A stretch of 64,000 nt of DNA from Dysidea avara (lineage: Eukaryota; Porifera; Demospongiae; Dictyoceratida; Dysideidae). Shown in pieces: positions 5,996-63,748 of the stretch; positions within the stretch are counted from its first letter, which is position 1, and each line of letters begins with the position of its first letter. The DNA is taken from the NCBI RefSeq assembly GCF_963678975.1, contig NC_089272.1, positions 61,454,574-61,518,573 on the forward strand, read 5' to 3'. A program made the position numbers and the translations under genes. A model generated the notes under the pieces. The model saw only the letters and a program-made list of their open reading frames with translations. It ran no database searches and was not told where the DNA came from.

Positions 5996-5999
5996 TGTG

Positions 6000-22245: not shown

Positions 22246-22746
22246 TATTCAGATGACCACAGAAGTATGCACTGTACAAGTAATTACACACCTTGAAAGA
22301 TCAAAGTTGTAAGCATGCTTTTGGTGAATGTAGAATCCGGACACATCTCCAGGACTGGCACACACGTACTTGTAGTTACACCAACAGGCAAAGTCCACTC
22401 CCCAGTCAGTTAAGTGTAGTTCAACATTTCCTATGGCATGAGCCAGGTCTGTGCCAATATAGCAGCCCTGAATGAGAGAATATTAACAGCATGAAATTTA
22501 TTTTATACACATTGGAACCCATTATATAATAGAGAGTATATTAGAGATGTTGACAAAACACTTTAATAGAACATACACATCAAGATTATAAATGAAATTG
22601 TGTAGAACACTTTTAATACGTGAATTCCATTAGAGTAATTTCAAGTAATGCAGGAACAATTATCTTAAAACAACAGCTAGTGATGTTAGCTGCTTTACAT
22701 AAGTCATGCTTGTCTTTTAACATGACCCAGCTAACCACATGATTAG

Positions 22747-23362: not shown

Positions 23363-23969
23363 CAGTTAATATAATTGAGGTTTCAGCGTACTCCATTGTC
23401 TGACAATTCCAAAGAAGTTAAAGATTTTCCTACCTTGTTTTAGGTGTATGCACTATTAGAGTATATGAATTCAACTGTGGCATAAACGTATTTCAAGTGC
23501 AGATTTTATGTCATTCTCGATCATGCTACAATGCTCAAATAAAGCTTAAGAAAATGGCAGTTAACCACAGGGTAGCATGGTCCAAACAGTTTACTCACAG
23601 GATACACTGTTTACGAAATATTAAGCTTTAATCACAACAATTCCACAACACTTATTGGTGCAAAACATCAATGAGTTGACTATCAATGTGTGTTATGTTG
23701 TATTCAAGCAACATTACATTATAACATTCTGAAAATGATCAAGAGAGTTTGTTGCTGTATCTGAGTAGTCACTAACCCACCAATTCATCACTATATACAT
23801 TCTTATCATACAGTTTCAGTACAAGGATACACTTTTATGAGTACAACACACTATAGCATACCTCACGAGGCTTGACTGTTTCCAGCTGGATCATGTCCAT
23901 GTAACTGAATCTGAGACTGGACAGCATACTAAAGTGATGATTAGGAAATATACACATTATGTGTACACA

Positions 23970-24450
23970 CACGCACACGCACACACATGCACACACACAA
24001 AAATCACAGGAAAATCCAGGACTAGCAACCGACAGGAGGCTGTACTGAGTCTCATAGGTGAAGGTGTGGGCACCTGAAGTCCCACCTGGACCTTCATCTG
24101 TTACATTAGACATGGACAGTTGGCAATTGCTTCCCTGGGTCACCATTGATGTTACAGCTGAGCCCCAGTTCACACTAGACCACCTTGTCCCATTTAAATG
24201 TGGGATAGACTGGAGATACACAAACAGACAGACACATATACAGCAAAGCTATGTGAAACACAGCTATTCCTGCCAGCACTGGAATGCCTGTGCACCACTC
24301 AGGAACTTGTGTCTTGTGCAGGCAAATCTTCCTAGTGCAGGACTAGAAACCCACAGGAAGATTGTCCAGGTCTCAATGTCGTGGAACCAGAAGTTCCACA
24401 ATGACCCCAGCACCTCTAACAAAGACAGTACTGTCCATCTTCCATAAAAT
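23970..24450 (-). mobile_element. SINE-like repeat body (unit 1)
   Basis: Sister of 360-840, with the same left-hand CA microsatellite (about 23,965-24,000) and small indels. It lies in the intron upstream of pseudogene exon 5. Confidence 0.5.
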
Positions 24451-25152
24451 GATAATAATAATATATAATACAAGATAAGTGTATGATATGGTTTACCATC
24501 CTTTTGCTGTATAGGTATTGATGGGTGTACTGATAGACAGTGTCATGATCAGACTTTAGAACACTCTATGGTTTCTATTGCTAGAGTACATTTGGCCACT
24601 TGCTTTGCTGGTATCTGTGTGGCTAGTAAACGAAGCAATGATGACTGTTCTAAGACATTTGTCTTACTGTGCGTCATCCATGGTAAACATTTCAAACTAT
24701 TATAGTGTATTCACTACCACTGAAGTGCATTGGTAACAGTGAACTAATGACACATTTCATGGACATGTAATAATGTACTGTAGCAACTAATTGCACTATT
24801 GTACTGACACATATCTTAATAATGACAAAATCACTATCTTTGCCATAATCATTCATATACAGCACTACACACATGCAAAATTTCAGGTTTAGTGGAGTAG
24901 CCTAACAGCAAGTACATACAATTCCCAGGTTGGGTGTTCCATAGATTAGCTGTATTGACACGATAGTTATATCTCCCAAACTCGACTACTACTGTATTAT
25001 TCTACTACATGCATACCAGATACATCCAGGTGTACATATACACAAGGTAGATTCAGTGAATAAACCACTTGTACATGTATGATAAATGTGTACACAAATA
25101 TATATAACTAGAACAGTCAAAATAGTCACTCAGCAATCAGCTGGTAGGAGTG

Positions 25153-25732
25153 CTATGGAAGGCACAGTCCTGGTACATCAGAACATGGCTGCAGAAAGGA
25201 GATATCAGCACCAAATCCATGTAATGACATCTTCATATCCTTCCAGTCTGGGTTGGTTGGGTGTACGACACAAGACCATGGCAGGTTAGCAGAATTGGTA
25301 TAGACACTGGGGATGATAGGGAACTTTTCTCCAAGTTCTTTGAATCGTCTGATGCCTTCATAGCCACTTACACTACGGAGTAGACCATACTGCAGTTCAT
25401 TAAGCAAGTTGACAGATCTGAAGGCTGTTCCTCTGGTCTCCACATAGAGTACATCATCGATGAGTTTCACACTTCTCTTGATGGTGTAACGATTGGCTCT
25501 GAAGATGGCTAAGATGGCGACACTTTCTGACTTGTTAACAACTCCAAAGTCTCCTTTAGTAGTTATGGAGGTCTTCACATCAAGTGAAGCTGGTAATGCA
25601 CCTGAAATAGTACAATAGTAACACTATAGTGTACTTGTATACATGTAGTACACTTGTACCGTTTGTAGAAGTCACAACTGAGAGAAGTACAATGGCTAGA
25701 GCACAGCAACTGATAATCCCGTCACACTTCAT
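25153..25732 (-). CDS. Putative small secreted protein, copy 2
   Basis: This is the same two-exon structure as copy 1: exon 1 25,732-25,660, intron 25,659-25,602, exon 2 25,601-25,153, 173 codons. It differs from copy 1 by few residues (for example RGTAFRS for RGKAFRS and FGADISF for FGAYISF). Signal peptide, WSCVVHP motif and C-terminal LCLP are kept. The host copy of kynureninase around it is dead, yet this frame remains open, so it can be expressed independently if the promoter came with it; the TATA-like box at 25,805-25,814 did. Function not recognised. Confidence 0.65.
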
Positions 25733-25804
25733 ATTGAGATCACAACTTGCCAATCTTCTTGTACCTTGATGGACAACTGTGGTGGGTACACTGTCCAATA
25801 ACTT

Positions 25805-25814
25805 GATATTTATA
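25805..25814 (-). promoter_or_regulatory. TATA-like box of secreted-protein gene copy 2
   Basis: TATAAATATC on the minus strand, at the same distance from the ATG as in copies 1 and 3. Confidence 0.45.
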
Positions 25815-26924
25815 GTTCAACTGAACTTGTCCCTCTGTTTACAACATCACTTCTACAAGTGTTACCATGTAGCACCAGTGATAAACAAAGTCAAAACATA
25901 CCATATAACATGATAACTTGCTTTGATGATAAAAGTTTCAAACAGAAAGTTACACACTTTAATCTCTTAGATGACATGATGTTTTTAGAGAAGCAATATT
26001 TTGTAGTACACAGATCAGTTTGTACTGCTCCTTATATCCAAAAATAAATTTAGTGAATAGGTCTACAAAGTGTACATTTAAAGAGAGATATACTGGTCCA
26101 ATACCACATGTGTCTCTATGTCAGATACCGAGTGTGGAACTTAGCTGGTGGTAGTTTCCAATTTTTAGACCAAAACACTTTCAATCTGTATGAGAATTAC
26201 AGATGGGTGTTTTTCCTGACATGTACGTATAGTGAAACAAACAATAGTGTTTTTGCTGTAATGTGGTGACTGCATTGCTTATGCATTATCAAGAGTTTGT
26301 AAGAATTACACCCAGTACTATTATTTTTAATTCTTATAATTATTATGCATTCTTGATACCTGTGGAGCATTGTCTGTAATATACACAATGTTAGTTATTA
26401 TGTGGACACTATGTGAGATGAGTTCACCTCCATAATCTGGACACCTAAACCATGACCTAAATTTGGTGTCATACGTAATATAACTCCATAGGAATAACCT
26501 GACATGAAAATGAAAGCATACCTTTGGAAAGGATAAGTGTACCTTTAAAGCAATACTGTTTACCACCCATTAACAACATCCACACATGTGCTAAAGTAGA
26601 ATTTGTACAGGCTCAAGCTTATTCAGACTTGTCTAATGTATATGGATCTAAGGAGCAAGATTTGAATATTATACACATTGATCTGTCTACAATGTTTATT
26701 TCTTCAAAAGCATCATCTTATCTTATGCTTTCCTACAAAATTGAAAATTTGTGTGACTATCTATTTGAAACCTTTAACATCAAAGTGAAATTATCATGTT
26801 ACACTGCATTGTCCATGACTGGACCTACCCTATTAACACTTGTAGAAATGATGTTGTCCACATGAAAGTTTGGGTGAATCATAAAATAACAAGCTATTGG
26901 CCAATATATTCACCACAGTTGGTA

Positions 26925-27690
26925 TATCAAGTTTTAATATGAAGTGTGACAGAGTTATCAACTGCTCTAGCCATTGTGTTGTGACTTCTACAAATGGTAT
27001 AAGTGTACTACATATATACAAGTACACTGTAGTGTTACTATTGTACCATTTAAGGTTCCACTCGATGTGAAAGCCTCCTTTACCACTAAAGGAGACTTTG
27101 GAGTAGTTACCAAGTCAGAAAGTGTCGCCATCTTAACCATCTTCATCGTCAATTGTTACACCATTAAGAGAATTATTGAAAGTAATCGATAATATACTCA
27201 ATGTGGAGGCCACAGCAACTGCTTTTGAATCAGCTAACTTGCTAAATGTACAGTAGTGTGGTCTACTTCGTAGTATAAGCAGCTATGAAAGCATCAGGTG
27301 ATTCAAACAAATTGGGAGAAATGTTTACTATCTTGGAGACCATCCATACACTGTTTTCATTTTAACGAAGGACTTGTTATCCCTGCTGCAAAAAAAACAG
27401 CAAACACATTTGTTAAAATAACAATTGGGAATTTTTTTTGTTTTAACATCATTTTCTTGTTAAAGTAAAAAAATTATTGTTATACTAGCAGTCACTTTCC
27501 ATTAAAATAGCAATTAATAGTTCTGCTGAAACAACATATGTTCTTTGTCATTTTTTACAGTGTAGTGCCCCTATCAATTCTTCTAACCAGCCGTGGACAT
27601 CCAAACAATCCAGATTAGGAGATGAAGATGTCACTACATGAGTTTAGTGCTGATATCTTCTTTCTGCAGCCATGTATCACAACTGCGTTT
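26925..27690 (+). pseudogene. Decayed inverted copy of the secreted-protein gene (unit 1)
   Basis: Sister of 3,300-4,075 and broken in the same places: frame lost after IIESNR, stop within the LLN region, same 0.2-kb insertion. Private changes include 'IVNCYTIKRI' and altered splice-side bases. It is not expected to encode protein. Confidence 0.72.
27352..27556. mobile_element. Short AT-rich insertion in the decayed gene copy (unit 1)
   Basis: The same insert as at 3,735-3,945 and absent at about 50,300, so it entered after unit 2 split from the common ancestor of the other two, or was lost there. Confidence 0.45.
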
Positions 27691-27779
27691 GTCACAGACT
27701 CACAATGCTACGTACTTCAATGTATTTACGGTACAGTCTGCCATATATTCACCTACAACATTCCCTTCAAATTACACAT

Positions 27780-28300
27780 TGATGTTAGCTAGGTTGGGCT
27801 GCCTTCGCAGCTGACAGCAGGCCACCAGGTACTCACTATACAGCTGGGTAGACTAGACCATCTTTCTTCACACACAAAGCAAAGCAAAGCCTACAGTAGC
27901 CATGCAAAACACAGCTATTGTTGCCCAGTGAACCAGCACTGGGATACCTGTGAACAACTCAAGTGCTTGAGCCTTGTGCAGGCAAATCCTCCTGGGACAG
28001 GGATAGTAGCCCACAGGAGAACTGTCTCATGGGGAGAGGTCATGGAACCCAAAGTTCAACAACAACCCCAACACCACTCAGTGAGATAAGAACAGTTGGG
28101 CATTTGCTTCTCAGGTACCCATTGATGTTACAGCTGGGTGAGCTGCTTCCCCAGATGACACCAGGCCACCAGGTCCCCATTTAAACAGCTGGGTATGCTG
28201 GAGCAACGTGAGTAAAGTTTCTTGCTAAAGGAAACGACAAAATTGGCATAAAACCTGCAACCTTTCAATTACCAAGCCAATGCTAGCTATGCTCCCTCAC
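27780..28300 (-). mobile_element. tRNA-derived SINE at the junction (unit 1)
   Basis: Sister of 4,140-4,680. The B-box-like block AAAGGTTGCAGGTTTTATGCC is visible near 28,245-28,266 on the minus strand. The A-box side carries the same 14-nt loss as unit 0. Unlike unit 0, it keeps the 'agctgggtgagctgcttccc' segment. Confidence 0.5.
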
Positions 28301-28301
28301 T

Positions 28302-28370
28302 TCACACACACACACACACACACACACGCACGCACACGTGCACACACTCAGACACACACACACACACACA
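28302..28370. repeat. CA microsatellite at tandem-unit junction
   Basis: A longer version of 4,660-4,706. To its left lies sequence from kynureninase intron 4; to its right lies flank normally found downstream of the gene's last exon. Confidence 0.75.
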
Positions 28371-29480
28371 ATCTGGTTTTTGGGTAGCCCTGCTTGAAAC
28401 TGTTACCCCAACAGACGCCTCTAAAATAAATATCATTTTATACATACGCATTTCTAAATGTCTAAATCTATTCCTAAATGGTTAAGATTCATTATTACAG
28501 TGAGACATTGCTGGAGAGTAATTATAATATTACTGCTAGCTAGATAGCTAGACTGAATTCGCTATTAACATGTTCCAGAGTAGAACCCCACCTCTTTTTT
28601 AAAAAATATAGTATTAGGCCACCAATTGTAGATTCCTTGTTTCCTGCCACCCACCCGCATGGTAATTTTACAGCCGCATGCAAATTTATTATTGCATTTG
28701 ATAGTCACGTGATCTAATGATTTTTTTGTTTATAAGTACTAGTGTGAGCACATGCTGTATCATTGGAAAGGTAGTGAGTTGTCTAGTGCCAAAAAGCATG
28801 GACAACTATGTAGTTTGAATCCATTCCAACCTCAAGCAGCAGATCTCTTCAAGTAGCCATTGGTGAACGAGATCCTATTATGAACAGGAGTCCCACGTTT
28901 ATGAACAGGAATCCCACTCATCTGACAATCTGTTATTAACGTGTGTGAAACATATGGAAAGTTTGTACTGTTGCAGTTGATGGCTAAATTAGTGTTAATA
29001 TGACCACAAGCATGATACACCTAGCCAGCTGAATGCTCAGAGAAAATGAGGTGTACTGCAACATTTCAAATCTAACCTTCTATGATATTTAAATCTTGAT
29101 GAATCCCAGTGAAATCACAACAAATCTTATATCGCTGCTAAATCTGAGAGAAAAGGCAATTAGGAGATAATGGGTTCCCTTTAATATCCTTGATATTAAA
29201 CAATACAATAAATAATAACCGTGCCCGCCTGCATGGTATTTTTTTTGCCTGACTAGGACGGAAAACAAGCAATTTACAATTGTTGGCCTTACTGCTATGA
29301 ATTTGCAATTATCATGTTCCAGCGTATCATATGCATGTTCCAGAGTGGAACCCCGGACCACCTCTTTTAAAAAATAAAGTTTAGCCGGCTGTAGCTAGCT
29401 ATCTGCCCCTGATTCAGTACCTCCCACCACATCTCAGTTTACTGCACTAAGGTGATGGGAGCAATTATAATAATGTTCAC

Positions 29481-29651
29481 CTCAATGTGTTCCTGTAACT
29501 TCAACAACAGTTCCCTGTCATACTCTACTTGTTGTTGTAGTAGATCCAGTGATGACTGGAAGTACCAAGTCACACCAAACAGTAGAACTAGACTAACTAG
29601 TGATAGTACTAAACTAACTACTAGTCCGACATCCTTGTTGGTAGCAGTCAT
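29481..29651 (-). CDS. Orphan first exon: membrane anchor plus coiled coil (unit 2)
   Basis: The 171 nt are identical to 5,825-5,995 and encode MTATNKDVGLVVSLVLSLVS, then the rest of the hydrophobic helix and a leucine/glutamine-rich stalk. The exon ends at GAG|GTGAGC in phase 0. The next exons in this direction are pseudogene exon 5 (23,928, also phase 0) after the junction, or those of the nested secreted gene (phase 1, incompatible). Whether it is transcribed is unknown. Identity in both units while flanks differ is suggestive of constraint, but the exon is short. Confidence 0.5.
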
Positions 29652-31075
29652 TGTGTTCCATAGGTTAGTGTATATCAGACTCGCCCACAAAATCATATGA
29701 TCTTTGATCTTCCGATTTCTACACACGTGATCTCTTATGCACATTAAGTCAAATTGGTCCGCTTTGTTCCATGGTTTGTATCCAAAAGTGTTTGCTAGTC
29801 AGTATAATATACCGTTGTCACATATGGCTACGTATACACCTGGAAATTCCCAGAAAGGCAGTAACAGTAATCATGTGTGTATGGCAGGTGTTCAAATGCC
29901 CTGAGAACAAGTGCTACATGTTTTATAATACAGAACAGAATTATTTACTCCAACACTTAAAACAAGATGTAGGTGTCACATACATAGATGATTACCAACA
30001 GTGTTAATTGCGCTCAACAGACAAACTGAACATGCATAGTTATAAGTAGTCTACACTAGTGTTGTACTGATTCCCACTTTTTAGGGAAAACCGATATATT
30101 TTACCCTGTTTTACCGATAGTTAACCGATACCCGATTGTAGGTCTCTACAAGTTATACTTGTGCATACTCCACTAAAAGTAGAGCTAATAAAGCCAATGA
30201 TGTAAGACTGTACACTTAGCTCACTCAAAGTTGCTAGTCAGACAAGTGGACTAGGGTCTGAACCATCACTGTTTATCTTGGTGGTTACCACAAAACATAA
30301 ACAAATTACCTAAGTAAATACCAGAGCCTTTGACACTAGCCCTGCAATGGTACTACAGCTGCTGAAGTTGAATAAACAAATAATCTGCTGTCCACAGCCC
30401 ATTATGGTAAAGATCCTATTATCAGTACAACTCTAGTCTACACAGCAATGATACATTATTGTCAGGTGCAAACACAATACAGCAATACTCAACATCATGT
30501 TTCTAAAAAAAACAATCATATAGTAGACAATTGCACTTTACACAGAAAACTTTTACAAATACAGACCTTTTATTAGTACAAGAACAAAGAATTCAACAGC
30601 TGGACTGAGTTTGAATTGTGGAAAGACCATGCAGGAAGAAAGTTTGTATTGCCACTTCATAGCTATACCACCCATAGGAGAGAAGCATATACATACTGTC
30701 AGGATGGTGGCCATGTAGGCTGCAGTAAATAACACAAAACTAACGAAAGAAAGTATTTCAAAGAATCTTGCAAGCTTTCACAGAAGTTTTGTTTGGTGTC
30801 AATGACAGCAACTGAGGATTTGTCATCAGGGTAAGTCACAGTTTGTTACATGGCAACACACACAAATCACATGAGAATGCATGCATCCATCATAGCAAGA
30901 GTGAAGATCACTGATTTCAGCAAATGGGGTGGAAATGGAAACAATATAACATATATAGCTACAGCAGTATAAACCTGGATAGCTGGATGAGTCATCTGTT
31001 CTAAATAGTACTAGTAAAATACAAGTAAGGTATCAACAATGCCAAATCTGGTTGTTGGGTCTTCCTCTTCTCTAT
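29652..31075. other. Non-coding flank, no gene seen
   Basis: Counterpart of 6,000-7,450 in unit 1. Small deletions relative to unit 1 (about 29,920-29,960) disturb every longer frame. The short hydrophobic frame at 30,553-30,735 changes residues and offers no motif. Confidence 0.5.
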
Positions 31076-31864
31076 ATCAAGACACACGATAGTGTGTCGT
31101 GCGGCCCAAGAAGCCGGCGCGCCACACCGTGAGTATATTAACAGGAAGAAAGAAAACGCAATTTTCACACCTATGTAGCTCTGTGATCCCTTATCCGATT
31201 GGAACCAAATTTGCTGGAGACGTGCCGCCCAGTTAGGGTAGTCTACATACCAAATTTGAAGAAAATCGCTCCAGCCATTTCCGAGATACGAGCGAACAAA
31301 ATTTCGTTTTAATTTCTTCGTTTTTTTCTTCTTCTTCATCTTCTTCATTTCGCAAAATTCGCCATAAAACACGAATGCGTGCTCGGATTTGGCTGAAATT
31401 TGGCACACTTAAAGGGCTCATTAAGGCGGATCTCCGTACCAACTTTGGTAGGAATCCGATGAACATTCACGGAGTTATGACCGATTATTTGCGTAAAATA
31501 AGGTCAAAGGTCTGTCACGCCTACAGGGTAAACGCCTTGGAGGAATCAGTTGAAAATTGATATGTAGATGGAGCAACCATCGTAGGAGTGCCTTTTAGTG
31601 GTTTGAAAGGAATCGGGATAAAGACCATGGAGATATGACACGAAACCCAACCTGTGTCAAAATTACGCGATCGATTTTTATGAATAAAAAAACTATTAGT
31701 TTTCGTATCTACCAGGCAAACCGCTTAGAGCAACGAGCTGAAAATCAGTATGTAGCTGGAATAATCATCATAGAAAGTCCTTGCAGTAGTACAGAAGAAT
31801 CGGATTACAAATCACTGAGTTATGATTCGAAAGGCAACTAGGTGCAGCAAATGCGAGATCGAGA

Positions 31865-35509: not shown

Positions 35510-38500
35510 CTACTCAATGTCATTCAACACTTCCACTAAAGTAGTATAGAAATGTAGCACTTCACTAAACATGTTGTAGAGTGGTGATGGAGTGATCCTG
35601 ACTATCCTTCGAAAACATTGCAACTGTTATTGAGAAAAACACACATGTAACTGTAGATTATAAGTAGAGTTTGATGCATACAACAGACATAGATTTCATT
35701 CTGGCGTGTTTGAAGGCATGCCCCAAAATGTCTAGCAATTTAGACTATTAACACTATGTTTCTATTGGAAGTACATTGTAGAGAGCTTGAGTGTACTTTT
35801 AGTATATATATCAATATTGCTACAAGCATAAAACAACAATAAAAGTGGGGGGGTCCCTTCATTGTCACTGCCTACCTGTATGATAATATGTAACAGTACA
35901 CCACGCAATATACAGTATAGTGCACGAGAAAAAAACAAAAAACAAATAGGAAGAAAGTACATAATATTATTTACGTTCCTCACAAATATTTCTAAAATGA
36001 AGTATAATTTATAATTATGTAACCATTGTAACATGGGCCAAAGGGATTTTCCTGACCCCAAAGCCTGAAGGATGCAGACCTAAGGACTGAGGGCATACAT
36101 ACAACATGAGATCCAAGTGCCTATGATACAGCTAATAAATATATGTAACACTTCCATAGCAGGCATTATAGATCAGCAGCAGGTGTTCATATGAATGGAC
36201 AGAGTCATGGAAATTGGAAATGTATGTGAAAGTACCAATGTTTAAAGACTGTTATCCGTTAAACAGTATTGTCATGTATTCTTAAAGACTTAGGGAGGTA
36301 AGCTTTATTCTAGAGTGATTATTTCGTATTATCTGTAATGTGGGTGTAGCCCACAATCAAAAACATTTGTGAATACGTCATAACACCAGTTCTCACCTTA
36401 AACTATTACTTCTCAACTACAAGAATGGCAAGGATAGCAAATAATGCGTCTCAGCACTTCTTGTACCAGAACTTGAAACTCATGGCAGTGATCACATGAG
36501 CATTTACTACAGTAACTCCCACAAACAATTTTTGCCTGAATATTTATAAAATGAAACGGGCTGTATTATAGCCACATTGAAGCAGCTTGAAGTGGCTTGC
36601 TCTTTTGAAGTGCAACACTTTCCTGGGATGCATTGCAAACACAAAGTACACCAATATACAGTTGTCTCCCTGTAAAGAGGTATGTACCCTCTGCAATTTG
36701 TTTGATCTGAGGTGCGAACGTGTTACATATGGTAAGCATTTCTTAACATGTTGAATCAGATTATGTATATATAGTGTGAACATTATTTCTACTGCGTGCA
36801 CATGTCACTTACTGCTATTCCTCTTTCCAACATTTTCTTACATACTTCATCTCCAGAACATGAGAACCTCACACCCAGGCAGCAGCCACGTTGCTCCGGG
36901 TCACTAGGTGTTACTATGTGAACTGTTGGTATACAGAATGCAATACAATTATAGTACATGTGACCACAGTCTGTTAGTTATAGTGGATGAGCAAATGATC
37001 TGACATACTGTAAACATATATTATCGTAAATAGGGACAAAAACATGCAACACACACCATCAGTTTTCTTTCTCTTGGCTAGTGGTTCCTGATTACCTTGT
37101 TCTGGTGACAAGTTCTTTAATAACAGTTCACAGTAACCAGTAAGGAGATGAGATTTCTTCCTAAACGTCTTCATGTCAAATTGTTTGAAGATCTGTATAG
37201 AAGTCAGTTGCAGAGATGAAAATTGCAATTATTACTATAATTACACTTAACACATACAGAAATGCTTCCGTGGCATTTCCACGGAGGTCTCCATTTTTTG
37301 GAAGTTTGTGCACTATTGAAGGTGTATTGTAGTAGAGTGGGTCATTTGTGAGAAAAGCATAAAACTTTATATCAATTGTACATTCAATTTTTTGATATAG
37401 TGCCATAGCAGATTTGACTTTTGGTGACCTTAGCAGTCAGAATATTCATCACTTTTACCTTTACTGTAGACTCCGGTTATTAGGCGCATATTGCTTCTTA
37501 AGCGCATATGGTAGACTTGTGCTAGACACCTGATTGTTAAGCGCATATGGTTGAAATCGTCTCTGCAACCTCGTACTACATAGAATTGCAACAAAAATTG
37601 TCAGAATGAATCAGACATGTCACAGCACACTCGATGCCTCACCAGGCCTGTGTCTAGCAGATACTGCCATCTGTAACAACGATAGCTGTAGCTACCTGAA
37701 TTCTAAAGATTTCCGTTTCCACGACTGAAGCAAACTATATACTGGTGTTCAAATCGCTTGACAACTGTAGTGGGCACAACTAATGCCCTCCTAGCAGAAA
37801 TTCCTTACCGTAATTTATAAGCACATGAGCTTAACTAGACAGATGCTAAAGCATGTGCGGGCGAGCCTGAGCTATGTCTTATTTGATGTTTGATTGCATA
37901 TAGCTTAAGTTGAGTAAACTTAGCAATGTTAGTGATCTCATAATTACACTGGTGAAAATAGCTAATGGTATACAAAAATTAGTGATTTTGTTAATACATC
38001 AAATATCAAATATTTCTAAAATAGCAGTTATCAACTGAAGGTAAACTGTGCGTTTTGTGTGCATACTTAATATGTGGCTATATGAAATTAAGAACGTGCT
38101 AATCAAAAGGTTGCAGGTTTGATGCTCAGGCTGGGTTCTGTACATGTGAGGATCATTATCCTGTTGTAGCGGAATTTCTTGCAGTTGATCAGAAGATATA
38201 TGTACAGGAATGAGATTGGTGAGGTCACTGTCGTCTGGTAATAGCGTCAATGCATCATGATTAATGGTCACATCATGGTAATAAGTGTTGTTTGTAATTA
38301 ACCACTGTAGTGCTGTAAGCACTACTAATCTGCGGACTCTAAAATCTCTGTGAGATTGTGCTACTCCTTCTCTCCTAACTATAATTACAGCTAAAGTAGC
38401 TGGACACCTTGGCAAGCTGTTAATAAATGATGTAACATCCTGAGGTGTATTAAGTATGTGTCCACTATAGCCGTATTGATCATGAGGAAGATGATAAATG

Positions 38501-41500
38501 GACATTATTGGAAGTACTCTGGACATCAGCATTTCTTCAGCCTGAGACAACCCATGCATGAAAAGATTATTATATTATGACAGTGGTTCATGTATAAATG
38601 CCTAGAGTAGGTTAGGAATTTTATTTAAGAATCTAAGGTTGTATATGAATGTAATTAATTCGATGTGTCATTGTGACAATATTGAATAAAACAAGACTTT
38701 CCTGCTAAAACTGAAATAATAAATTTATGAAATAATCACAGAGTTCAATAGGGACTGAACCAGGGTCCATGTTATTTTCCTGAGAAAACAGCTTTAGCAA
38801 TAGTGAATCAGCACGACAATGATGACATATCCCTAGTCATTAGAGTTAATTGTAGGAAAATGCTCCTTACACACATCACAGAATACATTGTATAAGTCAG
38901 AAAGAGTTCTGTGAAAATGCTGAATTCTTTGTATTACATTTGGATCATCAATTTTAATATGACTCAGTAAATGTGACTGCTCTATTAGAGGTATATCAAT
39001 CTTACGGATGACAGTGCTAAAAATGCAGCAAAGAGGGACTTCCGTCTCAGACTTCCATTTTCCTCACTTTTATTCTTTAAGTTCTCCATCGCTACCAACC
39101 ACTACGCCAATCACTGATTCATTATTAATATGTTTAGAGTCTTTTATCACTCTTTTTAGCCAATCAGATCATGTGATTTTTATTTTGTTTTCAAGTTTGG
39201 CAAAGCACTGACCCACCACCGTGAAACATTAGATTAATTTGTCATGGCCTTAGTGATAAACCTTGCATCTCTTTCATTTCGTGGTTCTTGGGCTTTTCTT
39301 TCTCTATCACGTTCTCTTCTTCTCCTTAATCTCTCATCTCTTTCCATGTGCGTGCGGGTGCTACTGTGCATGTGAGGTAGCTCTGGGACCACTACCAAGT
39401 GTGGAGACTTTCCGATTTGTATAGGAAATTTTTGTGCACGCGACATACGTACCATTTCAACTACCAAGTGTGGGGCTTTCAGGTTTCTTTAGGGAATTTT
39501 TGTTCACACGACATACGTACCATGGCCACTTGACAATACTGGGGCTTGCTCAGGCTTGCCCCAAAAGCATAGTAAATTTCACAAATAATTCCTCGAAAAA
39601 TTATAAGCGCATGTGCCTAATAACCAGAGTCTACAGTATCTCCTTAATTTATACTGTTAAAATATTATATAAATTAAAGACATTAATCTAAGAACAACTT
39701 GACTTTTGTTTGAAATCAATAAATCGTACTCTAGTCCAAAGTTATGATCAAATCATAACATAAAAAACTTTGAATTTATCTGCCCTAGAGTAAAATACCA
39801 ATGGGCAGGTAACTTTATAGAATTCCATTACAAAATGCAAACAATTTATAATTTTGAAATAAAATCACCAAATAAAAAGCCGAGTTGTTTCTTTCAACAA
39901 GACCTAAATAAAACCTCAGAGAGATTAACACAAAAATAATGATATTATGGCCACAAACATTACCAAAGGTCAATGGCACTACGTATATAAAGAGTCATTG
40001 GGAGCACAGGCCATGTAGCAATTTTGATGGTTTTCTCACAAAGTACACAAAATAATCATATTTATGTGCTATGCCAGTCTACTATTATAACACAGGCCCG
40101 TAGCCAGGAATTTTGAAAGGGGGGTTCTTTTTGACCAAAAGTGGACCTTTACTTGCATGATGATTAATAAAGGTACTGAGACTGGGTGTGCGAAGCACAC
40201 CCAATCTAGGGGGGTCTGGGGGCATGCCCCCCCAGAAAATTTTTTGAAAACATACTAAAAGGTTGAATTTAGTGGCATTTCAGTCAATAAAAATTAGGTA
40301 AACTGAAGACCAGCTGTATGAATGATATCTGGAAAAGTATCTCTACTGCTACTGTAATTATACCATCTGCACATACATGTGTCTAAATATAATATATTGG
40401 AATGTCACAATGAATAAGAATGGGAAAGATTGAGCACCCTGCCATGATCAACAGGGGCAGTGTAGCAGAACAAAGGGTGTCTTAAACAATGAAATTTACA
40501 CATTGCATGGAGTTGAAGCATGGATGCTATTCGTGGGCTCTGCATGGAGGGGCTTGTCCACCAAAATCTTATATTTTAATGAAAGCTCGGTTTAGACAAT
40601 CTACATGTAAATTAAGTAGCTTTTAAAAGAAAATGTAATTGTGACTGTTCTATTAGAGTGATTGTTCTATTAGAGTGGTTGACTGCTCTATTAGAGTATC
40701 TCGATCTTGCATTGCATTTAATGCAAGCACTGAATGAGTTACTCGGAGCACTTATTTTAGCTTCTTATTATAGTGGTATCTAGTAAACTGTAGCTAATGG
40801 ACTTTTGCTCCTGAAAATTTGGACTTGTATACTAAAATTGTGGACCTTTTTGCTAAAATTGTGGACCTTTTACTGAAATTGTGGACCTTTTTTCCAAGAG
40901 GGCGGTTCTTCAGAACCCCCCGAACCCCCCCTGGCTACGGGCCTGTAACACTACATAACTTTGTTAGAATAGGAAGTTTTTTCTGAACTTCAATAAATAG
41001 ATTACACTGTAAGACAGCTCAGACAGTAAGTGTGTTGTGATGTTCAAGTCAAAGTCATTCTATGTGCCATTTTCCCTGTACAGGAATTATTGTATTACTT
41101 TGGTAACAGTGGGGACCAGTCCGTAACTCAGTACTACCTGAACACCTGGCTGACCTGCATAACTTTCTTGGATTAAACAGCAGGTATTACATATTTACTC
41201 CTTGAAGATGACAGCAGGATATTTTCAGAATTATTTCCTGTGCCATTGCATGCATGACATGGGAGTTACGCAGCAACCAAATACATAGGAAAACAATCTC
41301 TCATGTAGTAAAGAGACAATACCATGAAAGGATCAGATAAGAATCAGCCACCTACAAGCTACAGGTTCCACTCAATTTACTGGTCATTTTGTACCACCTA
41401 CATGACTCCATGATTAGAATGCTAGACTTTATCAGCGATATTTTTACTCCAGCCACACAGATGCACATTTTCTAAATACAATACAACCTGTGAGGATGCT

Positions 41501-55800: not shown

Positions 55801-57287
55801 TGGGGGAAATGGACGACCACAGACACCAAAACCTTTGCTACATAGACACTAAAGAGTTTCTACACCTTTTGGTGGTTGTCTGCTGCTTGTAGGTGTAGCG
55901 ATTTGACAACACCTGGCAAAAGGTTGTTTATGCAGGTAAACAGGTGCCTGTTTCCATTGTTTTTATGTAAATAACAACACAAAACAAGTGTTAGGATCAC
56001 CTGGATAGTGGTTGCTGGCTGGCTAAAGGTGGTGTTAACTTGATCACTTGGTCAAGTTGATGTGCTGCCTTTATCTTTAATGCAATTAACGAACTACTCT
56101 ACTACTAACCTTTGTTAATCAAATTAAGCATGCACTCACAAGTATCAACCATGAATAGTATTGCACAGCAAAATCTTTAACTTTGTGACTCTACAACTCG
56201 CTCATACTTTACTCTATTCACAGCAGAAAACCACAAACTGAAAGAGTAATTAATGTAGTTTCATTATATGCACAGAGAACTGTATACTTTGTAACTAGCT
56301 GAGATTTAACCACTGACTATCCCAATGACTTCAATATACTTTTACGGGCATCCACAGCATCTAGTTATTACATCATTCTAAGGCCATTAAAATTAATGAA
56401 CTTCCGTTTAGAGTATTATTAGCAGTAATGTATGGGGTAATGAATTCATTACAACTATGAATCTTGTTTAGTAACTTATATAACTAATCCATACAAGTGT
56501 ACATTATATTCATATGGTTAAAACTGTCATTTAGTCTGGCTGCTATTATCTAACTAATACAACTATTTGTGATTAATGACAAAGCCATTTTTAAACTCTC
56601 TAATAGAGTAGTCTGTCATTTTCTATATAACTATACTAGTTAAGTAAAAGTCCTTAACAGAGGATATAGATTCATCATAATTACAAGTAACACGTGTGGC
56701 ACTAGTGAGAGAATTCTACCAAGAAGTGGCCAAGAAAAACATTTTCACTTAGTCAAGACAAGCATCATTGCTACGATGATCACAACACAGTAGTGATCAT
56801 TGTAACAATGATGCCATTTAATATCAGAGAACAGGAGTACCACTGGACCCCTTGATATAAATCAACTGGCAGTCAAATAAGGAAGTGGCTTAATGACTGA
56901 AGCTATAACACACCAAGGCTCCAACTATGACAAGGTGTATGTATACACTAGACTAGTCACTCACAGAATATACGTACCTATTGCTGGTCCGTCAACTGTT
57001 TCGGATTCTTCTAACAGCTCCCACACACGAGGGACGTGGAATTGTTTCCTAATGTGATTCATCTCATCATTATCGTCCAAGTACTTGGCGAATTCCTTGT
57101 CAGTAACTTGAAGACCCTTCTCCTTAGCCAGACGAAGCAACTGCTCCGCTGGATGCTGTATGGCATAACTAGTCGGCGTGCCTACATAGGTAAGCGTAGT
57201 AGTCCGAGCAAGCAGTAGCCTTGGTGCCCGGATGAACAAAGCCAAACATTCGCTAGAGATTATCCTTCTACAATTAAACGTGAACAT
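35510..57287 (-). CDS. KYNU: Kynureninase-like PLP enzyme, intact 13-exon gene
   Basis: Kynureninase cleaves kynurenine or 3-hydroxykynurenine to (hydroxy)anthranilate and alanine. Exons: 57,287-56,978; 52,197-52,089; 51,473-51,391; 51,273-51,134; 46,809-46,735; 46,131-46,050; 46,005-45,941; 45,499-45,324; 44,464-44,412; 43,272-43,187; 37,192-37,057; 36,922-36,813; 35,623-35,510. All have GT-AG borders and join in frame to 512 codons (human enzyme 465). Landmarks: [24 protein letters not shown], the PLP lysine in [32 protein letters not shown] near the C-terminus. The first about 45 residues ([12 protein letters not shown] and similar) are Arg/Ser/Thr-rich with one acidic residue, like a mitochondrial presequence. 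Human His102 is Arg here ([10 protein letters not shown]) and Asn333 (FRISNPP) aligns with GFAITTLPA, so substrate use may differ. Intron 4 hosts another gene. Confidence 0.9.
37464..39636. mobile_element. TA-flanked DNA transposon-like insertion in intron 10, carrying a Helitron-type ORF
   Basis: The 2,173-bp insertion has ends CTGTAGACTCCGGTTATTAG and the reverse CTAATAACCAGAGTCTACAG, and TA on each side. Unit 1 shows the empty site (about 15,133: 'ctttatcttc'). TA duplication and TIRs suggest a Tc1/mariner-type element. No transposase with a DDE signature was seen. It includes the DUF6570-like frame at 37,999-38,559. Near the right end two copies of 'cgacatacgtaccat' with 'accaagtgtgg' form a short direct repeat (about 39,390-39,525). 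Confidence 0.82.
37999..38559 (-). CDS. Helitron-type DUF6570-like protein fragment
   Basis: An open frame of 186 codons. Residues about 4-115 carry the run of motifs typical of the domain found near the start of animal Helitron Rep-helicase polyproteins: [19 protein letters not shown], then [59 protein letters not shown]. The last about 60 residues are unrelated and end in a stop. The helitron_like, Rep and helicase domains are missing, so this is a fragment. It lies inside a TA/TIR element and has no matching copy in unit 1. The unbroken frame implies a recent arrival. Confidence 0.8.
   Translation of the reverse strand: MHGLSQAEEMLMSRVLPIMSIYHLPHDQYGYSGHILNTPQDVTSFINSLPRCPATLAVIIVRREGVAQSHRDFRVRRLVVLTALQWLITNNTYYHDVTINHDALTLLPDDSDLTNLIPVHISSDQLQEIPLQQDNDPHMYRTQPEHQTCNLLISTFLISYSHILSMHTKRTVYLQLITAILEIFDI
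40093..40945. mobile_element. Non-autonomous DNA element, CAGGCCCGTAGCC ends
   Basis: The 853-bp element starts CAGGCCCGTAGCCAGG and ends CTGGCTACGGGCCTG, flanked by TAACA on both sides (40,088-40,092 and 40,946-40,950). Unit 1 retains the empty site (about 15,618-15,640, 'ctattataacactacataac'). There is no coding frame. It contains G/C runs near both ends and the motif 'ctctattagagtatctcgat'. The class is not certain. Confidence 0.82.
42335..42404. repeat. Short imperfect hairpin in intron 10
   Basis: Sister of 17,130-17,212: 'gcatatatactagtgg' pairs imperfectly with 'ccactaagacatctgc'. Confidence 0.4.
44061..44282. mobile_element. MITE with GGGACCATCCATAATTTTCAG ends
   Basis: 222 bp. The left end, GGGACCATCCATAATTTTCA, is mirrored by TGAAAATAATGGATGACCCC on the right. 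Inner bases also mirror ('acaaagagtactctttt' against 'agcatactctttgtactc'). It lies between kynureninase exons 9 and 10; the unit 1 counterpart is rearranged. Confidence 0.7.
44638..45063. mobile_element. hAT-type MITE, TAGGGCTGAGCGATAC ends
   Basis: A 426-bp element with ends TAGGGCTGAGCGATACTGCC and GTATCGCTCAGCCCTA, and a perfect 8-bp duplication GGCAGTAC (44,630-44,637 and 45,064-45,071). The unit 1 locus (about 22,022-22,032) has the single, uninterrupted GGCAGTAC. The interior is rich in 'atatcgcgat' words and non-coding. Confidence 0.9.
45144..45277. mobile_element. MITE, TGTGACCAGATTTG ends (unit 2)
   Basis: Sister of 22,102-22,245 in intron 8, diverged by several substitutions and a short deletion in the right terminal repeat. 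Confidence 0.55.
46850..47340 (-). mobile_element. SINE-like repeat body in intron 4 (unit 2)
   Basis: Third copy of the repeat at 360-840, with a longer CACG/CACA microsatellite at 46,843-46,896. Confidence 0.5.
48032..48620 (-). CDS. Putative small secreted protein, copy 3 (nested in intron 4 of the intact kynureninase)
   Basis: Exon 1 48,620-48,548, 58-nt intron, exon 2 48,489-48,032, 176 codons. It is 3 codons longer than copies 1 and 2: [11 protein letters not shown] replaces FPIIPSVY. Because the decayed inverted copies also carry the LET codons, the longer form is ancestral and copies 1-2 share a 9-nt deletion. It is in the same orientation as the host gene. Signal peptide and all features as for copy 1. 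Family unknown. Confidence 0.68.
48693..48702 (-). promoter_or_regulatory. TATA-like box of secreted-protein gene copy 3
   Basis: TATAAATATC on the minus strand, 73 nt upstream of the ATG, in the same position as in the other two copies. Confidence 0.45.
49360..49830. repeat. Dispersed repeat inserted between the inverted gene copies (unit 2 only)
   Basis: Units 0 and 1 lack this stretch. The end 'tgatgccttcagacaagcgtaactcaataac' is the reverse of sequence at about 17,708-17,740 and 42,876-42,910, so it belongs to a repeat family that also lies in intron 10. It carries 'actgactgagcaactgactgactg', a short tandem tract. No coding frame is supported. Confidence 0.5.
50040..50465 (+). pseudogene. 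Decayed inverted copy of the secreted-protein gene (unit 2)
   Basis: Recognisable pieces: start region 'tcaatatgaagtgt', then [18 protein letters not shown], and a C-terminal block 'tgggaaggatatgaagatgtc'-like that translates as [20 protein letters not shown] and ends [12 protein letters not shown]. Frameshifts and a lost signal-peptide exon make it non-functional. It lacks the 0.2-kb insertion of units 0 and 1. Confidence 0.7.
50540..51090 (-). mobile_element. tRNA-derived SINE with intact A and B boxes
   Basis: On the minus strand the head reads GCATAGCCAAGTGGCTTGAG (A-box-like TAGCCAAGTGG), followed about 30 nt later by AAAGGTTTCAAGTTTTATGC (B-box-like). This is the spacing of a tRNA-derived RNA polymerase III promoter. 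The body contains 'cagctgtaacatcaatgggtacctggg' and 'ccaggaggatttgtctgcac' type blocks shared with the other copies. It lies just downstream of kynureninase exon 4. Confidence 0.65.
52198..56977. other. Kynureninase intron 1, 4.8 kb, no gene seen
   Basis: The homologous intron of the plus-strand paralogue is only 589 bp, so this one has been expanded. Visible pieces are a TA tract near 54,944-54,960, a transposon-end-like block with 'aatatcgcggtatatc' at about 54,800-54,875, an inverted pair 'aacgattattt..' / '..aataatcgttt' at about 55,296-55,380, and several copies of the 'actctaatagagtagtc' motif. The frame at 53,893-54,147 has no recognisable domain. Confidence 0.55.
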
Positions 57288-57386
57288 ATTTAATGCGATA
57301 GTAGATTTTTAGAGGCGCGAAAGTTCGCGCCTTTGCTTGTGCTCTCACGTGACTAGCCTAATTAATCAGTGACCAAACTGCGAACA
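57288..57386. promoter_or_regulatory. Compact bidirectional promoter between two kynureninase genes
   Basis: Only 99 bp separate the two start codons. The stretch contains the GC-rich palindrome GGCGCGAAAGTTCGCGCC (57,314-57,331), which embeds two opposed E2F-like sites, and an E-box palindrome TCACGTGA (57,345-57,352). No TATA box is evident. It is the most CpG-rich spot in this AT-rich region. Shared control of both genes is inferred. Confidence 0.65.
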
Positions 57387-60300
57387 ATGGAAGGACATCC
57401 AGCAGAACAGTTGCTCCGCCTGGCTAAGGAGAAAGGTCTTCAAGTTACTGACCAGGAATTTGCTAAGTACCTGGACGATAATGATGAGATGGGTCACATT
57501 AGAAAACAGTTCCACATCCCTCGTGTGTGCGAGCTGTTAGAAGAATCTAAAGAAGTGGACGGGCCAGCAAAAGGTGTGTACACTTGCAGTATAGCTTGTT
57601 TTGGTAATGTGCTAGTATGAATGTTGCAAATCAGTCATACGGAATCGTTGTATTCGATTGTGGGTTTATACATTCATGGTTGGCGCTCCCATTGTCACTG
57701 TACTATTGTCTCCAGTCACAGTGTATATTCGGATCAGTCATGTTTTCAGTGCACGAACATATTGAATAAATCAGTCTCAATGGTCAAACCTGAAAACCCT
57801 TGGCTGTGTAGTTGTACAGTGACTTGCAAGAATGTACCCCTTGTAAAGAAAGGCCTTACTTCAAACAAGAATATTGTGGACACTTGTAGGGTTAGACACT
57901 CATTCAAAGTATCCTTTACAACATAATTATGCTAATATTGACACTTGGTTGGTACCAAAGTGAAGGATACTTTGGGACCAGTTTACAATAAAGGGGTTGT
58001 CCTCTCTTAGAGGTAAAGTGAACAACCAGACCGTCAATACCAAAACCTTTGTGTATTCTTTAGTTCAGACTGATAATCCATATTTACCAATGGATTTTTG
58101 TGGCAGCGAATGGTATTTCTAATATGTGTAAGTGTAAATTATTGCATGACCTCACCATACAGGTGTGGATCCCAACAAGGAATGCGTCTACTTTGCAGGA
58201 CAGTCACTCGGATTACAGCCAATAGAAACCAAGGAACTGGTAGATGCAGAGATGGAGAAATGGCGTAAGAGGTACGTATGTGCATTTATCTGTTGCTAAT
58301 ACTGTAGTGGCTGGGATTAACTGATTCTCCATTTCCAAATTCAAACAAATCACAGCACAGTGGAGCCTGCCTTAAGCCATTAACCTACAGTTAATAATAC
58401 AGTATTAATTAAAAAGGGCAAAGGGCTTACTGCTACGTAACTCCATATACTGACACGTAGTCATGTACCTTTCCTTGCTGAAAGTTATAATAGGCACGAT
58501 AATCCACTAATAATATATTCACCTTGGCACAACTATTACAGGGGCCAGTATGGTCGTAATACAGGAGAGAGGCCATGGGTACCAATTGAGGATACTGTAT
58601 TGGAGCAAAGTGGAATTCTAGTTGGTAAGTGTGTAGTGTGTAATATAAACAGGATACCCTTGATTGTGCACTACCGTAAATATATTGGATATCTCATATC
58701 TGCCTAGGCTCCAATTCAACAATAGTAGTGATTTCTATATTAGGAATATCTCTTTACACTATACTTGAATAATATACGATTCCCACTATTGTGCAGAGTT
58801 GCACCACATTACATACAATGTGTGCTGTTCAGATACTTATTACATTCAATAATGATATTAACTACACTGTATGTCTTTAATTCAGGTAGTGTTGAACTGT
58901 TAGTGTTGTATATTAACTGCTATATTAATTATTTTGTCAGGAGCTAAGAACCCATCTCTAGAAGTGGCCATAATGAATGGACTAACCATTAATATTCATA
59001 TTGGACTGACTGCCTTCTATCAACCAACTGCTACTAGACACAAGATCCTCATTGAAGATGGAGTGTTCCCTTCTGACTTTGTATGTGTAGTGCGTGCGTG
59101 CATGTGTACATGTATGTGGATGTGTGTTAGTGAGCTAGACAAACCTGTAGTTAAGTTAGAACACCAGCCAAGGTTCCGGGTTTGATACTCATGTTGACTA
59201 GTTGTTGTTGGTGTAGACTTCCCTAGCTGTACAAGAACTGTTTACAACTAAGAAAGCAAATGCCCAACATGTCCTTGTCTCATGAGCAGTGTTTGGGTTG
59301 TTGTCGAAGTTTAGGTTCTGTGGCCTCCATCTATGAAATTTGGGACAGTTCTCCTAGCCTGTGTGAGTTACTAGTCCTGAAGATGAAAATCAAATCGGTG
59401 AGGATGCACAGGCATCCCAGTGCTGGTTCACTGAATAGCTATAGCTGTGTTTCATGCAGCTGGTTTGTTTCAGGTGTTGGCTAAGTACAGGCTAACACTG
59501 CTTTAGTACATATGTATTACTCTGTGTTGTGTTGTATGTAAGTGATGCATGTGTGGCCACAATTATACTGTGTTTGATTTTCATCACTTTAGTATTCCGT
59601 CCAGTCTCAAATTCAGTTACATGGATATGATCCAGCAACGTCTGTAGTGATAGTAAAACCTCGTGAAGTGTGTTACATGTAGATGTTGTACAGTATATGT
59701 GTGTGTACGTACATGTGTGCATGTGCCTGCATATGTATGTACATCTGTCTGTCTGTCTGTCTGCATATCTGTGATGGTATAATAACTCTATTATCTTCAC
59801 ACTCAAGGGTCCCTTGTTTGATACTCTTTTTCAAAGACAAATATTTCTGTTACGGTTGTCACAATACAATATAAATCCTCCAGATGTGCACAGCTGGAAC
59901 TTGTTTGCACTGTTTAGCTATTCTATGTGAAGGAAGTTACATGTGCTTCTATTAGGGTGAAGAAACTCTCAGAACAGAAGACATAGTGGCTAAAATTATG
60001 GAAGAAGGTGACTCAATTGCTTTGGTCTATATCCCAGGTAAGGTGTTGATATCTGAATAGTATGACTAGATCGATCATGTCTTTCTACAGGGATTCAGTT
60101 TCTCACTGGTCAGGCATTTGACATCAAAACAATCACTGAAGCTGCCCATGCTAAGGTGTGTGTAATTAAACTGTATGTGTATAGCGTGTGATGTGTTATT
60201 GACAATAAGTAACTAATTCATAGTAGGGCTGAGCGATTGTGACATTTGCTACTTTCACGATTATAGGATACAACATATCACGATTGTGGTAACTATCACG

Positions 60301-62474
60301 ATGTTATAACTCACATACATCATCATTGAGCATGCACTACTTTATATGAGTTATATTTAATACAAGGTGAAATTGTGTATAACCTGTTGTTTGACACAAT
60401 TAAGGCCATAGGCAGTTACAGTTTAATACTAATAAATAATAGTATATACCCTTAGAATTCAACAGTTTCTAACAGGTGAGCTTTAAGCTACAGTATGTAG
60501 TAAAATTTGTTCAAAACTGAACTATATCAGGATTGTTTTCTAGATCGTGTTCTTCCACAACAGTATGTGCCACCATTTTGAATATATATACTAATGCACA
60601 CTTGTATGGCATGTCACAACATCATGATTATTTATACCACATATCAACATCACGATGTTCAGAGACAATCACGATTAATACCACAATCGATATAATCTCC
60701 CAGTCCTAATTCATAGTGGCAGATCTACAGTTTACACTTGCTTTATTTAACTGTCAGTTGATCAGTATTTGAGAAATGTTGCAGAAGAGAATTTGTATTT
60801 TGTCAACTTTTAATTCACATTTCACTGTGTTCAGAATTACAAAAGTATACATCATTATTAGGGTACAATTTCTATGAGAATTTGCAAAGTGGTGTTCCAA
60901 ACTTTCTTGTAAATTGTCAATGCAGCTACAGGTAGTCCAACAGCAGTGAGTCTCCCCGCAAGCTTTTGTGAGACTGATCATTGATTCGCTTTTAAAGGGC
61001 ATTTTAAGCAACTTGCTCACTTTAAGAATTTGTTTCTTTTGCTGCTGCGTATGTTGGCGTTCATACGTTGAATTGTTCTAATTATGCAACCACTTATTGT
61101 GTCAAAGTGGACAAACAAGAACGTGCTGTAAATGTACACTATTTCCAATTTACTTGCACACTTTCTTACAGGGTTGCTACATGGGCACAGACCTGGCTCA
61201 TGCCATAGGAAATATTGAACTACACTTATCTGACTGGGGAGTGGACTTTGCTATTTGGTGTAACTACAAGTACGTGTGTGCCAGTCCAGCTGGAATATCT
61301 GGATTCTTCCTACATGAAAAGCATGCGTACAACTTTGATCTTCCAAGGTGTGTTATTTGAAATAGGTATCATATGCTAATTGGGGGATAAGGGATTTGGC
61401 TTCATAATCAATCACATGTTGTTATCCATTAAGGTGATCTAAAAGAAATGTCAACGTTGACACGTCAGATTTATAAATACCAAATATATTTTATGTAAAT
61501 GATGAATTGTATCTCCATGCCATTCTGATGTGTCTTGAAGCTTACACATACCTTCTTGAGGAAAACAAGATATGACAACCATGTCCATTAATATTTACAT
61601 AGCTAACTCAAGACACGCAGGGAGATCGAGATACTCTAATAAAACAGTCGCAGCCATGTATGTGACTGGATCTGTGAAAACCAGACACAATCGCTTAAAC
61701 CTAAGTTTACGTATAGAGCATTGAATACAATGGGACTGGGTGAAATATTTGCATATCATTGAAAAACTTTTGAACACCTTTCTTAGCGAAGGAAGAGACT
61801 ACCAATAAGAAACTTTATATCATCTTATTCACCTACTCAAAAGGAGTTTGAAAATCTTTTGTTTCATTGCAGTAGACTCAAAGACACACAAATTATGGAT
61901 ATTTATGTCACATTGAAGCAACCGTACATGATCAATCTTTCTTCACAAATATGCACTAAAGAAATGTGATTAAATGAAAACCTTACCCAACAATCTATTT
62001 CCCTATTCAGGGTGAACACAATGGTGCAAATTTCAACTCTGTATGTCATTCCGTTTGTAAGTTACAACCATTTTAGTAAGCACCTGTAATTTATTTTTCC
62101 TATACCTGCTGTACAAATCAATTTTTCTGTTGTTGTTGCTACTTTGTAGGGCTTTAATTCAAAAAGTTATTGGCATATGAGACTGAAACTATGCCAGAGG
62201 GTACACTTGGCTGAGTAGATTATAAATGTTTAATAAACGGGAATTTGAAAAATGCAGGATTGTGTCGGGTTTTCAGTGATCCAGTCACGAATATCATACT
62301 GTAGCTATGCTACTGGTGTAATTAAAAATAATTTCTTAGTGTGTATATGATCGTATTCTTATGCTACAAGTGTGCATATGTATATGGTCAGGTCACATGT
62401 GTTAATCCATCTTTCATTTAGGATGGTTGGGTGGTGGGCACATAAAAGAGAAACAAGATTTGTTATGGATAACT
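57387..62474 (+). CDS. KYNU: Kynureninase-like PLP enzyme, plus-strand paralogue (5' part, nine exons in window)
   Basis: Exons: 57,387-57,573; 58,163-58,271; 58,542-58,624; 58,941-59,080; 59,593-59,667; 59,956-60,037; 60,091-60,155; 61,172-61,347; 62,422-62,474. Lengths from exon 2 onward and all phases equal those of the minus-strand gene. It starts [18 protein letters not shown] without the presequence of its partner. Landmarks: [53 protein letters not shown] lysine in [17 protein letters not shown]. His102 of human is Arg, as in the partner. Exons 10-13 are not found before 64,000; in the partner intron 10 alone spans 6 kb, so they may lie beyond. The frame runs on after exon 9 to a stop at about 62,660 and includes PGTHPQRLVVNYPEIGLAS, possibly a diverged exon 10. 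Confidence 0.85.
59110..59475 (+). mobile_element. Diverged tRNA-derived SINE in intron 4 of plus-strand gene
   Basis: The head includes 'ggttccgggtttgatactc' (B-box-like). The body shares 'gacagttctcct', 'acaggcatcccagtgctggttcactg' and 'gctgtgtttcatgcagctg' blocks with the copies at 4,140-4,680 and 50,540-51,090. An old SINE in the same intron number as in the partner gene may be ancestral to both. Confidence 0.5.
60224..60708. mobile_element. hAT-type MITE, TAGGGCTGAGCGATTG end, 8-bp target duplication
   Basis: A 485-bp element between exons 7 and 8. It starts TAGGGCTGAGCGATTGTGAC and ends AATCTCCCAGTCCTA, with perfect flanking ATTCATAG (60,216-60,223 and 60,709-60,716). It shares its end with the element at 44,638-45,063 but has a different interior with 'atcacgatt' words. 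Confidence 0.85.
61661..62289. mobile_element. DNA element with TGTGACTGGATCTGTGAAAA ends
   Basis: About 0.63 kb in intron 8. The left end TGTGACTGGATCTGTGAAAA plus CCAGACACAATC is mirrored by GATTGTGTCGGGTTTTCAGT plus GATCCAGTCAC on the right. The ends are cousins of the TGTGACCGGATTTGCGAAAA MITEs at 11,852 and 22,102. TA lies at the left flank ('tgta'). No open frame. Confidence 0.65.
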
Positions 62475-63728: not shown

Positions 63729-63748
63729 GGGGGGGGGGGGGGGGGGGG
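63729..63748. repeat. Poly-G tract, 20 G
   Basis: An isolated homopolymer followed by 'tatccc'. A similar tract lies at 13,179-13,197. Otherwise nothing is visible from 63,531 to the window's end. Confidence 0.8.

Follow-up and report, generated by a model that had tools for sequence, protein, structure and literature searches.

Head-to-head kynureninase paralogues in the sponge Dysidea avara: a likely shared CpG-rich promoter and a candidate mitochondrial presequence in one product

The locus comprises two kynureninase genes arranged head to head, one on the minus strand (L) and one on the plus strand (R), whose start codons (57285-57287 for L and from 57387 for R) are separated by the 99 bp of positions 57288-57386. 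Positions given without a contig label refer to the window, that is, the whole stretch of 64,000 nucleotides that was analysed (C1:61454574-61518573; 37.6% GC), from a genome assembly of 550.8 Mb in 108 contigs. Both genes consist of 13 exons in matching positions, with internal splice sites of the GT-AG type. Exon 1 of R (57387-57573, plus strand) begins with MEGHPAEQ and starts like human kynureninase; it is followed by exons 2-4 (58163-58271, 58542-58624 and 58941-59080), 5-7 (59593-59667, 59956-60037 and 60091-60155) and 8-9 (61172-61347 and 62422-62474), with exons 10-13 located past the end of the window, in the adjoining sequence L003 (72233-73267 on the window scale). In L, the part of exon 1 that is homologous to R exon 1 (56978-57155, minus strand) is preceded by a 44-codon N-terminal extension (57156-57287) that is open from the ATG and represents a candidate mitochondrial targeting peptide. 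The remaining exons of L are exons 2-5 (52197-52089, 51473-51391, 51273-51134 and 46809-46735), 6-9 (46131-46050, 46005-45941, 45499-45324 and 44464-44412) and 10-13 (43272-43187, 37192-37057, 36922-36813 and 35623-35510). The predicted proteins contain 476 (R) and 512 (L) amino acids. Intron 9 of R includes a run of 20 G (63729-63748), and intron 10 of L harbours, on the minus strand, an open frame for a DUF6570 protein (37999-38574; PF20209, E 3.5e-24) that presumably comes from a Helitron-type element.

Both genes belong to the kynureninase family. Peptides translated from the R exons find human kynureninase (PDB 2HZP and 3E9K) with E-values of about 1e-89 to 1e-90, L matches it with an E-value of 4e-131, and exons 1-8 of R alone score 255.7 bits against the TIGR01814 kynureninase equivalog (cutoff 246.4). 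The preliminary description of this locus, in which two kynureninase paralogues diverge from a 99-bp spacer, is borne out: the 58 aligned residues of exon 1 are 90% identical, and the two ATGs flank the spacer on either side.

The pair belongs to a larger kynureninase cluster. Searching the genome yields at least 40 kynureninase exon matches. Of those recorded, 39 fall in the interval 60.978-61.613 Mb of C1, and the other, resembling exon 2, is on C10. The cluster (C1:60978249-61612831, 0.63 Mb) encompasses at least eight loci, namely L, R and six more that are defined by exon matches on the plus strand: K1 (60.98 Mb), K2 (exon 1 only; 61.10 Mb), K3 (61.19 Mb), K4 (with a stop in exon 4; 61.21 Mb), K5 (exon 1 only; 61.22 Mb) and K6 (61.58-61.61 Mb). 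In addition, there are two further tandem copies, spaced by about 23 kb, of exons 5-13, the 3' half of L. The second copy (12540-31077, minus strand) contains exons 5-13, with exon 5 partial and exons 6-7 inverted at 22982-23172, and is probably a pseudogene. Of the third copy, the window includes flanking DNA and an incomplete exon 5 at 316-272 (1-7449 in all, minus strand); exons 6-13 of this copy lie outside the window, in the adjoining sequence L005. Exons 1-4 of L were not found in either tandem copy. Copies 2 and 3 share four long blocks of 95.2-97.1% identity and a repeat-rich block of 77%, and both look like pseudogene fragments. The tandem segments (1-34229) also include inner short-repeat arrays near 8.8-11.7 kb and 32-34 kb. 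Among viral contigs, two stretches fit a search pattern for relatives and neither was confirmed; plasmids gave no match.

L and R are old, constrained paralogues. Over 471 aligned codons, dN is 0.089 and dS 0.459 (dN/dS 0.195), and this dS indicates that the two are neither alleles nor recent copies, so that a join of haplotypes is rejected; most of the intron sequence of the two genes does not align. When the alignment, calculated with an L model one codon shorter (dS 0.464, dN 0.087, ratio 0.188), is cut into eight consecutive blocks of at most 60 codons, dN/dS stays below 0.32 in every block, and over the initial 60 shared codons it is 0.17. These low pairwise ratios suggest that both genes are under constraint. 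L and R cluster together with 100% support in a tree of seven sequences, in which K1 is represented by 109 sites. L has changed more than R, with 19 against 7 derived changes (52 unresolved) and branch lengths of 0.138 and 0.063.

The two enzymes share 46% identity with human kynureninase and retain K276, which we take to be the PLP lysine, as well as D250, H253, Y275, W305 and R434, to which we ascribe the catalytic roles. Position 138, a threonine, is serine in L, and S221 is replaced by proline in both proteins. The pocket diverges from that of the human enzyme: H102, S332 and N333, the human residues that presumably set the preference for 3-hydroxykynurenine by recognising the ring, are absent from L and R, which contain R102, T332 and T333 together with C279, S281 and P282 (N, G and A in human). 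Only part of this change is specific to the pair, since R102 and T332 are also found in K3, and P282 in K3, K4 and K6. In full, K6 retains H102, S332 and N333, K3 combines R102 and T332 with N333, K1 has H102 (the other two positions of K1 were not read), and K3, K4 and K6 all have N279, G281 and P282; accordingly, T333, C279 and S281 occur only in the L/R pair among the paralogues readable at these positions. Substitution of H102W together with N333T reportedly shifts the human enzyme towards kynurenine (Lima and co-workers, 2009). The PDB chain 7S3V, which we take to be an engineered human kynureninase, has T333 and S281/P282 as in the sponge pair, but W102. L and R thus may differ in substrate, that is, in ring preference, from the other paralogues, with the direction of the shift inferred from these residues.

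L also differs in its N-terminus. Before the part homologous to R, the frame of L has a further 44 open codons, in DNA that constitutes the promoter side of R; for an open frame of this length, the chance probability is 0.043, which is low though not negligible. The encoded segment includes five arginines and a single acidic residue (net charge +4) and an amphipathic stretch with a helical moment of 0.388. The N-terminus of R has a higher moment (0.438) and a net charge of -3. Among the 235 ATG-started 44-codon frames of the window, four reach the extension on all four features, itself included (three of the 234 others), in a test that was chosen after the extension had been seen; when only net charge and helical moment are compared, 26 of the 235 equal or surpass it. 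These properties suggest a resemblance to mitochondrial targeting peptides and make the extension a candidate presequence.

Among L, R and the four other paralogues with a readable start, the extension is unique to L. R (MEGHPAEQ), K1 (MMEQL), K3 and K5 (both MEKP) and K6 (MGSNHEVS) have short starts; none of these five genes has an earlier ATG in frame, and in K1, K3, K5 and K6 the frame closes upstream of this position. K2 has no ATG at the start position, and for K4 no exon 1 was observed.

An alternative with an appreciable, albeit minority, chance of being correct is that the two genes do share a promoter but the extension escapes translation or plays no part in targeting, so that L would be a second cytosolic enzyme initiated at a non-ATG codon or in a hidden upstream exon. 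The original start could have left a trace in L, where an ATG lies out of frame 11 nt before the homologous codons (the junction reads ATGCCATACAG directly before CAT in L and ATGGAAGGA directly before CAT in R), and the extension includes a plausible splice acceptor, TTTAATTGTAG. However, a single ATG precedes the constrained N-terminus of L in frame, at 57287 with A at -3, and any exon further upstream would necessarily overlap R or its promoter. Because the region that follows is constrained and this is the sole in-frame ATG before it, ATG 57287 is the simplest start for L, with the extension as a predicted part of the protein.

The 99-bp spacer is a candidate bidirectional promoter. It contains seven CpG, a count reached by 0.9% of the 99-bp stretches in the window, and its observed/expected CpG ratio is 1.5 against 0.32 for the window as a whole. 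High CpG content in a CpG-poor window is expected of a shared promoter, and, the spacer being so short, a shared promoter is the simplest reading: one short CpG-rich spacer likely switches on both kynureninase genes. The 400-bp stretches richest in CpG are found elsewhere, near 8.0 and 31.1 kb of the window. A repeat origin of the spacer is rejected: a 281-bp query matches only itself and the L exon in the genome, and the 18-bp core of the palindrome described next, GGCGCGAANNTTCGCGCC, occurs at a single place in the 551-Mb genome by exact search.

Two sequence elements reported in the preliminary description, opposed E2F-like sites and an E-box palindrome, are indeed present in the spacer. 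The first is AGGCGCGAAAGTTCGCGCCT (57313-57332), a 20-bp palindrome with two perfect 9-bp arms around AG, which forms putative opposed E2F-like sites. The word GCGCGAAA at 57315, which reads TTTCGCGC on the minus strand, agrees with the E2F consensus and occurs once in the 64 kb against 0.04 expected; the relaxed form of the opposed sites is GGCGCGAA/TTCGCGCC. In simulations of 99-bp stretches, a palindrome with arms of at least 9 bp and a loop of up to 4 bp arose in 50 of 20,000 with the composition of the window and in 38 of 20,000 with that of the spacer. A background of about 0.012-0.014 per 99 bp is fairer, because the real window holds nine distinct palindromes of this kind, AGGCGCGAAAGTTCGCGCCT included (11 listed rows, against a mean of 1.3 rows in ten simulated windows). 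The second element, the E-box palindrome TCACGTGA (57345-57352), is found four times in the window against 0.45 expected; it is thus not special to the spacer. A palindromic E2F-like site, GGGTTTCGCGAAACCC, is also seen about 140 bp upstream of the start of the paralogue K1 (L034:1344-1359). Taken together, the spacer is best read as a CpG-rich core promoter with a putative E2F-like inverted site.

The preliminary description went further and took the internal symmetry of the palindromes to suit a bidirectional promoter born from an inverted duplication, and it is this part of the reading that lacks support, in contrast to the genuine head-to-head paralogues, the short CpG-enriched spacer and the E2F-like inverted motif. 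Homology between L and R begins only at R codon 4 (CATCCAGC), with 88% identity over 180 bp of exon 1, and the homologous exons place the duplication axis at 57275.5, 47 bp away from the palindrome centre at 57322.5. A palindrome that is the footprint of an inverted duplication which copied the promoter, leaving a symmetric bidirectional promoter, appears improbable. Its perfect 9-bp arms are the best local match in the 240 bp between the homology edges, reached by 11 of 1000 shuffles, and there is weak global symmetry about 57275.5 (score reached by 49 of 1000 shuffles). Against this, the centre is off the axis, the arms show no symmetric match past 9 bp, a local alignment around the axis does no better than chance (520 of 1000 shuffles), and identity between the 120 bp to the left and to the right of the axis is 53%, compared with 49% after shuffling, with about 65% expected for a neutral copy as old as L and R. 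Given this counter-evidence in position and extent, the palindrome is probably not a scar of the duplication. It also appears that the kynureninase duplicate probably did not bring, or keep, a promoter copy and sits instead on the other side of the R promoter, although the weak symmetric signal leaves room for a decayed copy of a shared promoter.

Elsewhere in this genome, another pair of head-to-head paralogues illustrates what an inverted duplication that copies its promoter should look like. This pair, presumably UBIAD1-like (UbiA family by PF01040), lies at 11.37 Mb of C13 (about 11.370-11.373 Mb), with frames of 321 and 381 codons (L045:1396-2358, minus strand, and L045:2467-3609, plus strand). 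As in the case of L and R, the inverted duplicates are transcribed divergently, but here the symmetry runs through the centre: the inverted repeat is 86.5% identical over 2.5 kb, spacer included, and the inner 200 bp are 69% identical against 51% in shuffled sequence. The pair looks younger than L and R and is not, for that reason, a control of equal age.

If L is mitochondrial, another possible role would be the supply of 3-hydroxyanthranilate to COQ2 for rhodoquinone synthesis. Rhodoquinone in Caenorhabditis elegans needs kynureninase (PMC7434440, PMC8659336), and in animals its synthesis needs kynureninase together with a variant exon of COQ2 (PMC7434440, PMC8659336, PMC12403961). COQ2 is seemingly duplicated in this genome (C13:8.689-8.694 Mb and 8.707-8.710 Mb). 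Despite the need for kynureninase in the worm and the mitochondrial look of L, this role is very unlikely, because in both genes the diagnostic exon is of the F/A form alone, reading LGFAFSWG...DTIYAFQ in one and LGCAFSWG...DTIYAFQ in the other. The e-form exon, with F changed to L and A to S, was not found, nor was a second copy of the diagnostic exon, in the stretches read of the two C13 COQ2 genes. The positions of the two diagnostic residues were deduced from that literature and from the human sequence. Human COQ2 presumably has FNWG and DTIYAHQ at the places where both sponge genes have FSWG and DTIYAFQ. The rhodoquinone role of L is accordingly not supported by the COQ2 genes found, neither of which has an exon of the e type.

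It is highly improbable that the pair was created by a faulty assembly in which two separate loci or haplotypes were joined: the surroundings are rich in repeats, with tandem units about 23 kb apart and long blocks of 95-97% identity, but the dS between L and R is far above allelic divergence, most of their intron sequence does not align, and the spacer lies inside a 65-Mb contig.

Divergent paralogue pairs of this kind are known in other systems. The collagen IV genes COL4A1/COL4A2, COL4A3/4 and COL4A5/6 are head-to-head paralogues, as L and R are; a shared bidirectional promoter is reported for COL4A1/COL4A2 in the titles of works that PMC12141075 cites, and the pair is conserved across most metazoans. 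The collagen IV chains assemble together, whereas the enzymes encoded by L and R are predicted to go, probably, to different compartments. In another sponge, Amphimedon queenslandica, bidirectional promoters, with starts within 1 kb of each other, are common and show a rise of CpG at the start site and enrichment of a G-box-like E-box (PMC4773876). The L/R spacer resembles them in CpG rise and E-box; the ATGs of L and R are 99 bp apart, and their transcription starts may likewise lie within 1 kb. Neither E2F nor paralog appears as a term in the main text of that paper. A published report of the L/R pair, or of any sponge kynureninase, was not found in the literature searched, most subscription journals being outside its scope. 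The head-to-head layout of paralogues is, then, already known; what is unusual here is that the two products are predicted to have separate addresses, together with the way in which the extension arose.

Altogether, the sequence evidence makes it somewhat probable that L and R form a functional head-to-head pair which arose by inverted duplication and is driven from one CpG-rich promoter, with L mitochondrial, R cytosolic and the pocket changed in both. Under this scenario, an inverted duplication within the kynureninase cluster would have produced the pair, with the inverted copy L landing beside the promoter of R, which it would now use from the other side. The reading frame of L would then have run into promoter-side DNA and acquired a new arginine-rich N-terminus of 44 residues that sends L to mitochondria, with R staying cytosolic. 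The more specific proposition that the targeting peptide was born from promoter-side DNA, such that the same event led to promoter capture and to a mitochondrial, pocket-altered kynureninase co-driven with its cytosolic twin, is speculative and is put forward with a modest chance only.

The new lead that emerges from this locus is a possibly mitochondrial kynureninase with an altered pocket, and the partial match of its pocket residues to 7S3V makes a direct enzyme test possible. To our knowledge, animal kynureninase is not usually placed in mitochondria. If L is mitochondrial, a step of the kynurenine pathway would be placed in an organelle that is unusual for the animal enzyme, and the pair would be an example of promoter DNA turned into a targeting peptide through inverted duplication. 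One arrangement could then explain both the joint expression and the separate addresses of the two products.
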